A stretch of 12,288 nucleotides of DNA from Candidatus Methylomirabilis sp. (GTDB lineage Bacteria > DYJV01), in the NCBI GenBank assembly GCA_020722945.1, contig DYJV01000066.1, positions 1 through 12,288 of the forward strand, given 5' to 3'. Within the stretch, counting starts at the first letter, position 1. The number at the start of each line of letters is the position of its first letter. This document shows positions 2-12,288 of the stretch, in pieces. The notes under the pieces are model-generated. The model worked only from the letters and a program-made list of their open reading frames with translations, made no database searches and was not told the origin of the DNA. A program made the translations under genes and the position numbers.

Positions 2-79
2 TTTAAAGAAATTTTTCAGATAGGGATAGAATTTTCCAAAACCAAGCGTCAGATAATAGGGTGGAATTGTGAGTTATGA
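2..79 (+). CDS. C-terminal tail of an AAA-ATPase-like / PD-(D/E)XK (DUF1703-type) protein, partial
   Basis: An open frame runs in from the left edge and ends at TGA 77-79, giving 25 residues that include IFQIGIEFSKTKRQIIGW. The pattern I-x-x-I-G-I-x-F-S-x-x-x-R-x-I-x-x-W is the typical last strand and tail of the PD-(D/E)XK nuclease-like domain (DUF1703) found at the end of AAA-ATPase-like proteins that occur in many copies in anaerobe genomes. The tail encoded at the right edge of this window (minus strand) has the same arrangement, which strengthens the call. The catalytic part and ATPase domain would lie outside the window. The stop codon sits inside the first unit of a heptamer repeat that continues downstream. 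The assignment rests on a short tail and is tentative. Confidence 0.6.
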   Translation, partial: FKEIFQIGIEFSKTKRQIIGWNCEL

Positions 80-106
80 ATTATGAATACCTTTGCGTCT
101 TTGCGA
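67..106. repeat. Heptamer repeat (xxTGAAT family) followed by an octamer tandem repeat
   Basis: Read on the plus strand, TGTGAGT, TATGAAT and TATGAAT follow each other in a 7-base register from 68 to 88, overlapping the stop codon of the upstream partial gene. Immediately after, CTTTGCGT (91-98) and CTTTGCGA (99-106) form an octamer tandem pair. Read on the opposite strand, the heptamers at 12075-12130 belong to the same family (units such as GGTGAAT and GATGAAT). The CTTTGCGT word also recurs at 11938-11945, next to the right-hand repeats. I see no coding function; this looks like an interspersed repeat. Confidence 0.6.
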
Positions 107-132
107 GAGATATAATAATTTCAAGAGATAAA

Positions 133-231
133 ATGACAAATATTGATTTTAAAGAAAAAGCTAAATCTCTTATTGACAGTCTCAAAAGTATCAGTGTAAA
201 AAAAAGAAAAACTTTTGCACCTCTACAATAG
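133..231 (+). CDS. Possible 32-residue small ORF, unrecognised
   Basis: ATG 133 opens a 32-codon frame ending at TAG 229-231. It encodes a lysine-rich, probably helical peptide beginning MTNIDFKEKAKSLIDSLKSI. The purine-rich AAGAGA at 123-128 could act as a weak ribosome binding site, and TATAAT at 111-116 is a possible -10 box, but I see no matching -35. It may be the surviving N-terminus of a decayed gene, since it lies in a repeat-rich gap behind a nuclease tail. I do not recognise a family and do not infer a function. Confidence 0.2.
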   Translation: MTNIDFKEKAKSLIDSLKSISVKKRKTFAPLQ

Positions 232-9592: not shown

Positions 9593-9677
9593 ATGAATAC
9601 AAAAAGTAATAATCTTAAAAAGTAATAATCTTATTTATCTGTTCCTACTCCTATTTTTTATTTTTTCATCTCCATTA
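9593..9677 (+). pseudogene. Frameshifted start and signal peptide of the TonB-dependent receptor
   Basis: ATG 9593 has AAGGGGAAG (9579-9587) as ribosome site, but its frame stops after ten codons (MNTKSNNLKK, TAA 9623-9625). The receptor frame itself has no ATG between its upstream stop (TGA 9594-9596) and GTG 9678. The cause is an exact 16-bp duplication (9601-9616 and 9617-9632). Removing one copy joins ATG 9593 to a 29-residue signal peptide (MNTKSNNLIYLFLLL, then a hydrophobic run ending PVYA before EKD) in frame with the receptor, giving a 696-residue protein. As read, this segment cannot encode a secreted receptor. Confidence 0.8.
9601..9632 (+). repeat. Exact 16-bp tandem duplication in the receptor's signal-peptide codons
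   Basis: The unit AAAAAGTAATAATCTT occurs at 9601-9616 and again at 9617-9632, with one further matching base. Sixteen is not a multiple of three, so the second copy shifts the frame and brings in the stop TAA 9623-9625. Only a single-copy allele reads through, since any extra copy meets this stop. Tandem units of this size are known substrates for slipped-strand gain or loss. Confidence 0.9.
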
Positions 9678-11942: not shown

Positions 11943-11969
11943 GCGTTGGATGGTGTAGTTTTTTTAAAA

Positions 11970-12042
11970 AATTCCCCTCTATGGAGGGGTGGCAGGCAAA
12001 GCCTGACGGGGTGGTCAATTATCCTTCAAGCAGAGGGGAATT
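11970..12042. repeat. 73-bp palindromic interspersed element with 11-bp terminal inverted repeats
   Basis: AATTCCCCTCT (11970-11980) and AGAGGGGAATT (12032-12042) are perfect 11-bp terminal inverted repeats. Inside them are a GC-rich hairpin CCCCTC-TATG-GAGGGG (11974-11989) and a second one CAGGC-AAA-GCCTG (11993-12005), followed by GACGGGGTGGT. The GC content is far above that of the surroundings. The string GGGGTGGCAGGCAAAGCCTGACGGGG-type core resembles an interspersed element seen in many unrelated bacterial genomes, where chance frames through it read PS-MEGWQAKPDGVV-like peptides. No transposase lies in it, so if mobile it would need help in trans. Confidence 0.7.
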
Positions 12043-12074
12043 AAGAGCGGGAGAATACAAACTTGGGAAAAATA

Positions 12075-12130
12075 ATTCTCAATTCACCATTCACCATTCA
12101 CCATTCAAAATTCATCATTATCAATTATCC
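12075..12130. repeat. Heptamer array, eight units in exact register
   Basis: In 7-base steps from 12075 the units are ATTCTCA, ATTCACC three times, ATTCAAA, ATTCATC, ATTATCA and ATTATCC. The last unit contains the TAA stop (12127-12125) of the minus-strand nuclease tail, so the array begins at the 3' end of that gene. Read on the minus strand, the units are of the xxTGAAT type also found after the left-edge nuclease tail. Confidence 0.75.
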
Positions 12131-12286
12131 AGTTGCCCACTTCCACTCTGAGATATTTTTTGTCTGGCTGTCAAAGTTGATCCCAACAAGGAAAAGCTCT
12201 TCATTTGAACTTTGAGGCTTAAATCTTGATAAATATTTACTCTTTATCTGATCCAATGCTTTATCTGCACTCTGGTTGCATTTAAA
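12125..12286 (-). CDS. C-terminal part of an AAA-ATPase-like / PD-(D/E)XK (DUF1703-type) protein, partial
   Basis: On the minus strand an open frame enters from the right edge and runs 53 codons to TAA 12127-12125. It contains SADKALDQIKSKY, then ELFLVGINFDSQTKNISEW. The order A-L-x-Q-I-x-x-K-Y, linker, L-x-V-G-I-N-F-x-S-x-T-x-N-I-x-x-W is the characteristic end of the PD-(D/E)XK nuclease-like domain of AAA-ATPase-like proteins (DUF1703). The N-terminal ATPase domain and the catalytic residues would lie beyond the window. Its tail is homologous in layout to the partial gene at the left edge. The stop codon lies in the first unit of the heptamer array. Confidence 0.75.
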   Translation of the reverse strand, partial: FKCNQSADKALDQIKSKYLSRFKPQSSNEELFLVGINFDSQTKNISEWKWATG

Positions 12287-12288
12287 TT

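Follow-up and report, generated by a model that had tools for sequence, protein, structure and literature searches.

Heptamer repeat arrays at the stop codons of a dispersed DUF1703 nuclease gene family in a Candidatus Methylomirabilis draft genome

The analyzed window is the whole of contig C118 (12,288 bases) of a 184-contig, 2.51-Mb draft genome, and each of its ends holds a truncated 3' end of a DUF1703 gene (Table 1). Proteins of this family combine an AAA-ATPase-like domain (PF09820) with a PD-(D/E)XK nuclease domain (PF08011, PDDEXK_9), and the gene is dispersed in this genome in at least eight copies. Both contig ends are assembly breaks inside this gene. Two tails lie at the two window ends because the assembly breaks at the multi-copy gene, and we accept this assembly effect for their coincidence. 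The arrays themselves are not an assembly artefact, as several lie in contig interiors (C104, C136, C157, and C56). Elsewhere in the window, a perfect two-copy 16-nt direct repeat (AAAAAGTAATAATCTT, 9601-9633) lies upstream of a TonB-dependent receptor gene. An Rfam search of the window gave no match to any known RNA family.

Table 1. Gene ends, heptamer arrays, and dispersed repeats near the two ends of the window
Feature	Position	Strand	Basis and remarks
Diverged DUF1703 gene end: final 25 codons, TGA stop	2..79	+	Family HMM; cut by contig end
Short TGAATNN-type array, ~4 units	63..90	+	TRF score 36; motif search
Dispersed repeat directly after the left array	91..209	+	82% identical to C47:2935-3052
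Dispersed GGGGTGGC-type palindromic repeat	11959..12016	+	88% identical to part of C63 flank
TGAATNN heptamer array including the stop codon, ending in a T-run	12068..12127	-	Motif search; 60 nt from stop to T-run end
DUF1703 gene end (PDDEXK_9 C-terminal end): final 53 codons, TAA stop	12125..12286	-	Pfam E=5e-4; cut by contig end

The right tail contains only part of the PF08011 domain and for that reason scores below the curated cut-off. Its identity is 92% to the copy on C91 and 79% to those on C63 and C123, and the C91 and C63 copies both clear the cut-off. The left tail, with the peptide FKEIFQIGIEFSKTKRQIIGWNCEL, is too short for Pfam, and its family assignment comes solely from a family HMM built here, which gave 9.3 bits versus at most 3.1 for 1000 shuffles. 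No second clear copy of the left tail was found in the genome by DNA comparison. The right copy is one of a group of recent paralogues, and the left copy is a diverged member.

Read on the minus strand from the stop codon (12127 down to 12068), the right array is TAATTGATAATGATGAATTTTGAATGGTGAATGGTGAATGGTGAATTGAGAATTATTTTT, with at least six heptamers that start within the stop codon. The left array consists of the units GGAATTG-TGAGTTA-TGAATTA-TGAATAC, of which two of about four are perfect, and the TGA stop (77-79) is the start of the unit TGAATTA. The initial annotation had placed the stop codons of both tails inside (TGAATNN)n arrays, and this is confirmed, with the left array the weaker. 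It had also treated the tails as two independent loci; the left copy is indeed diverged from the right, but both sit at window ends through assembly breaks.

Each tail has a dispersed repeat close by. The repeat of about 120 nt after the left array starts CTTTGCGTCTTTGCGAGA and holds a short conserved reading frame (NIDFKEKAKSLIDSLKSIS). Its match on C47 has neither a gene tail nor an array in front; this gene-free copy is that of a dispersed repeat and not a proven empty site such as a homing endonuclease gene would have. The palindromic repeat near the right array has dozens more matches in the genome and is a neighbor of the copied unit described below, lying outside it. Palindromic repeats of the form CCCCTCTATGGAGGGGTGGCAGGCAAAGCCTGACGGGGTGGT are dispersed in the genome, often directly beside heptamer arrays.

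The fullest copy of the gene is on C136, where the N-terminal PF09820 domain matches with E=6.7e-59, and the C-terminal half with PF08011 is found on other contigs. We located 5' ends on C136, C91, C59, and C106, with fragments on C20 and at the start of C136, and 3' ends on C63, C91, C118 (both ends), C123, C44, C78, and C20, with a remnant on C134. Aligned at the stop, the coding ends of the copies are 80-92% identical. Crude dN/dS between these short tail segments is about 0.11-0.24, which suggests that the protein is under constraint. The PADLOC models of anti-phage defence gave no clear match, the best being PDC-S41 (13.9 bits, E=0.003).

An array is present at the stop in seven of the eight readable DUF1703 tails, versus none of about 594 other sampled genes of this genome. 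Five of the seven array-bearing tails begin alike (TAATTGATAATG), and the arrays are alike among copies but differ in unit number. The eighth tail, on C78, is array-free and has no TGAAT at the stop; this paralogue (L262, reverse strand) ends in a hairpin-like AAAGTAAGCTTTTGC...AAAGCTTACTTT instead. At the other end of the gene, the 5' flanks aligned at the ATG agree to about position -60 and diverge beyond it, with C136 and C59 agreeing for about 20 nt more. A sigma-70-like promoter (TTGAAA-17-TATATC) was read by eye within these 60 nt, and none of the five 5' junctions seen has an array. In the 60 nt past the T-run, likeness is 0.41-0.58 versus a random mean of 0.49 for all pairs except C91/C123.

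The copies are thus alike from about -60 to the T-run, with mostly unrelated flanks, which argues that the array travels with the gene as a dispersed unit. The downstream boundary is also marked by the C47 repeat, whose homology starts at window base 91, right after the array, so that the unit ends at the array end. Because the contigs break inside the gene, no copy is readable end to end, and the unit is therefore reconstructed from unpaired 5' and 3' ends. Compared by eye for terminal inverted repeats like those of DNA transposons and insertion sequences, the two ends of the unit have only an A/T-rich likeness of about 10 nt, of low complexity. Carriage of the array with the gene, as the initial annotation had proposed, is well supported within this genome.

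Arrays of this kind are also common elsewhere in the genome. The exact triple ATTCANNATTCANNATTCA occurs 30 times genome-wide versus 0 in a reversed control. A motif search for TGAATNN arrays of at least three units found 30 in 0.70 Mb sampled, versus 0 in a reversed control and 0-1 in Markov shuffles; since contigs with arrays already known are partly favoured in this sample, the 30 is not a genome-wide density. For the DUF1703 ends of this genome we relied on this motif search, as a strict period of 7 misses degenerate arrays and a gene filter let through only one such end. Twenty-three of the 30 sampled arrays lie away from DUF1703 genes, and the seven at DUF1703 tails abut the stop. The former all keep a distance of more than 80 nt from any same-strand stop ahead of them, the shortest being 83 nt. 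The initial annotation had considered whether arrays would be equally frequent after unrelated genes: they are common away from the DUF1703 gene, but not at other stops in this genome.

Most arrays in this genome come after other, non-coding repeats. Class B bodies, which measure about 55 nt and contain GAGCTGGAACACTTGAA and ATTTTATAAAAATT, lie ahead of TGAATNN arrays at 10 sites (loci in this genome include L249, L250, L253, L255, L267, L271, L273, and L284), and class C bodies, with ATTATTAATGTTGAAT, at 7 sites. No consensus structure or conserved RNA fold was found for the class B body. The arrays mostly terminate in AATTATTTTTTT or a similar T-run; a terminator hairpin was rejected, as the tails fold no better than shuffles (z of 0.97, 1.29, 1.23, and -0.49). 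Further heptamer-like arrays (GGCTGAAGGCTGAAGGCTGAAGG, TTAGTTGTTAGTTG, and CTCTTTTCTCTTTT) occur in the same intergenic islands (L256, L011, L037, and other loci of this genome). The same array module thus stands behind at least two non-coding bodies besides the gene, and the array is a common, generic intergenic heptamer repeat of this genome.

We compared these tails with family members from other genomes. In a relative of the same order (G001), the DUF1703 gene end is array-free and lacks TGAAT at its stop. Among 138 distinct family C-terminal ends elsewhere, from loci fetched for the DUF1703 family and not for arrays, a strict period-7 array lies within 100 nt of the stop in 3 (L045, Aminicenantes; L049, Deltaproteobacteria; L098, Phaeodactylibacter) versus 1 of 1029 other genes; the remaining 135 (~98%) have no such array within that distance. 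Period 7 is not alone in showing a contrast, as the same comparison at period 8 gives 3 family ends versus 4 other genes. When the window at the stop is made stricter, the counts are 2 of 180 family ends versus 1 of 1368 other genes (p=0.037). A within-genome control in Phaeodactylibacter gave no clear preference, with arrays at 2 of 20 family ends versus at least six near the stops of about 199 other genes. A family-wide link between arrays and DUF1703 stops is therefore weak at best. With C78, G001, and most family ends elsewhere lacking one, an array at the stop is not a hallmark of the family, although nearly all readable tails in this genome have it; members without heptamers, which the initial annotation had named as evidence against its proposal, are thus many. 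As a separate observation, a period-7 array in a Bacteroidetes gene (L063:1972-2010) is read as part of a signal peptide (LFIVHCSLFVIHS).

A striking recurrence is seen in Aminicenantes, although it comes from a single genome and from copies that are related. That genome contains the exact TGAATNN triple 49 times. The first TGA of TGAATCGTGAATTGTGAATGGTGAAT serves as the stop codon in its DUF1703 copies C50 and C83; the array of C4 is shorter, and just one unit is present at C1, C169, C236, and the remnant C116. All eight tails with a TGAATNN ending start with TGAAT at the stop and contain one to four units. On contig C36, a cas6 gene (PF01881) owes its stop codon to the final 15 nt of a DUF1703 gene; that DUF1703 gene's own stop and array follow (L372 around base 1500, reverse strand; G336:C36:31066-31099). 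Downstream, the flanks of C36 and of the C236 copy match. The C36 arrangement would be explained equally well by an insertion or by a deletion of the DNA between cas6 and a DUF1703 gene formerly beside it.

We consider it probable that a generic heptamer repeat was captured at the 3' end of the dispersed DUF1703 gene and then amplified with it. A generic intergenic array would have come to the 3' end in an ancestor of most copies, supplying the stop codon. The copied unit would run from about 60 nt upstream of the ATG, including the sigma-70-like promoter, to the T-run after the array; array and gene would have been copied together, with the unit number drifting by slippage. The array-free ends of C78 and G001 suggest that the array was gained in this lineage. 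Capture possibly occurred two or three times independently; the arrays of C44 and of the left window copy are differently composed, which may point to separate captures. Because C136 and C59 share an additional stretch upstream and C91 and C123 a common downstream flank, segmental duplication may account for some of the copies. A single capture in this lineage does not account for the recurrence in Aminicenantes.

Another explanation is local birth, in which a stop-containing heptamer (TGAATNN) expanded by slippage into an array separately in each lineage. The uniform TGAAT start and graded unit numbers of the Aminicenantes tails fit this, but in this genome the array is mostly found apart from the gene, and C78 and G001, whose gene ends are array-free, lack TGAAT at the stop; we regard such a birth as improbable. 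Coincidence, in which contact between generic intergenic repeats and stops reflects only the shared ancestry of a few copies, we regard as improbable to the same degree. The arrays are abundant and generic, and those of Phaeodactylibacter also lie near the ends of unrelated genes. Yet no other sampled gene of this genome has a TGAATNN array at its stop, and strict arrays near stops elsewhere are commoner for the family than for other genes.

Two further explanations give the array a function. The array and T-run could be a shared 3' tail recognized by a copying machinery that moves the gene (autonomous) and the short non-coding bodies (non-autonomous). One tail is common to the gene and at least two other bodies, and 3'-only gene fragments with the tail occur both here (C134) and in Aminicenantes (C36 and C116). 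The unit has its own upstream promoter, however, which is at odds with a simple RNA copy, and there is also a fragment with only the 5' part (C20:15531), which simple deletion would produce; we think this explanation unlikely. That a bacterial machinery, perhaps with the DUF1703 ATPase-nuclease, uses such a tail in at least two phyla to mobilize both the gene and the short non-coding bodies seems to us unlikely as well. Alternatively, as the initial annotation had suggested, the arrays could be integration or repair sites, cut or recognized by the nuclease, into which the gene inserts. The family is a nuclease with an ATPase domain, and arrays abut its stop in two phyla. Had the gene inserted into an array, units should flank it on either side, but the 5' junctions have none; most local arrays lack the gene, and most family members, with one local paralogue (C78), lack the array. 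We consider such targeting very unlikely, and recognition of the arrays by the nuclease, or a role for it in making or using them, is not supported.

Under the favored reading of capture and amplification, the array belongs to a dispersed gene unit whose boundaries can be read, and its spread could be traced by occupied versus empty sites in close strains. If the tail were functional, it would tie an uncharacterized, much-expanded nuclease family to the spread of repeats; even if not, the copies of this gene clearly carry a repeat along with them. Such multi-copy genes also break assemblies and put family tails at contig ends, which is a point of caution.

Some eukaryotic LINEs and SINEs share a 3' tail. 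The arrangement here may be likened to such pairs, with a coding body and several non-coding bodies bearing one repetitive 3' tail and with 3'-only fragments, but the promoter lies inside the unit here, and the likeness is an analogy only. Heptamer arrays are, to our knowledge, widespread in bacteria, with no source or carrier established. As in known bacterial heptameric tandem repeats, the arrays are intergenic, with 7-nt units, few per array and variable in number; there are many arrays per genome, at sites beside unrelated genes, and period 7 is far above chance. Heptameric repeats are over-represented in bacteria, including GGGAATC and GGGGA(C/T)T repeats (PMC4692102), and for the TAACTGA repeats of Beggiatoaceae an overlap of stop codons is on record (PMC4679880). 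Unlike these, the unit here is TGAATNN with a T-run at one end, and the arrays are attached to a dispersed nuclease gene and other repeated bodies. The AAA plus PD-(D/E)XK protein family was defined in 2007 (PMC1913061), and other bacteria also have several copies of the gene, with 25 paralogues described in Cardinium cCpun (PMC6387759). Both genomes hold many paralogues of the two-domain protein and partial genes at contig borders; unlike the Cardinium copies, for which the available portion of that report mentions no heptamer array, the copies here are recent, with 80-92% identical coding ends that finish in a heptamer array.
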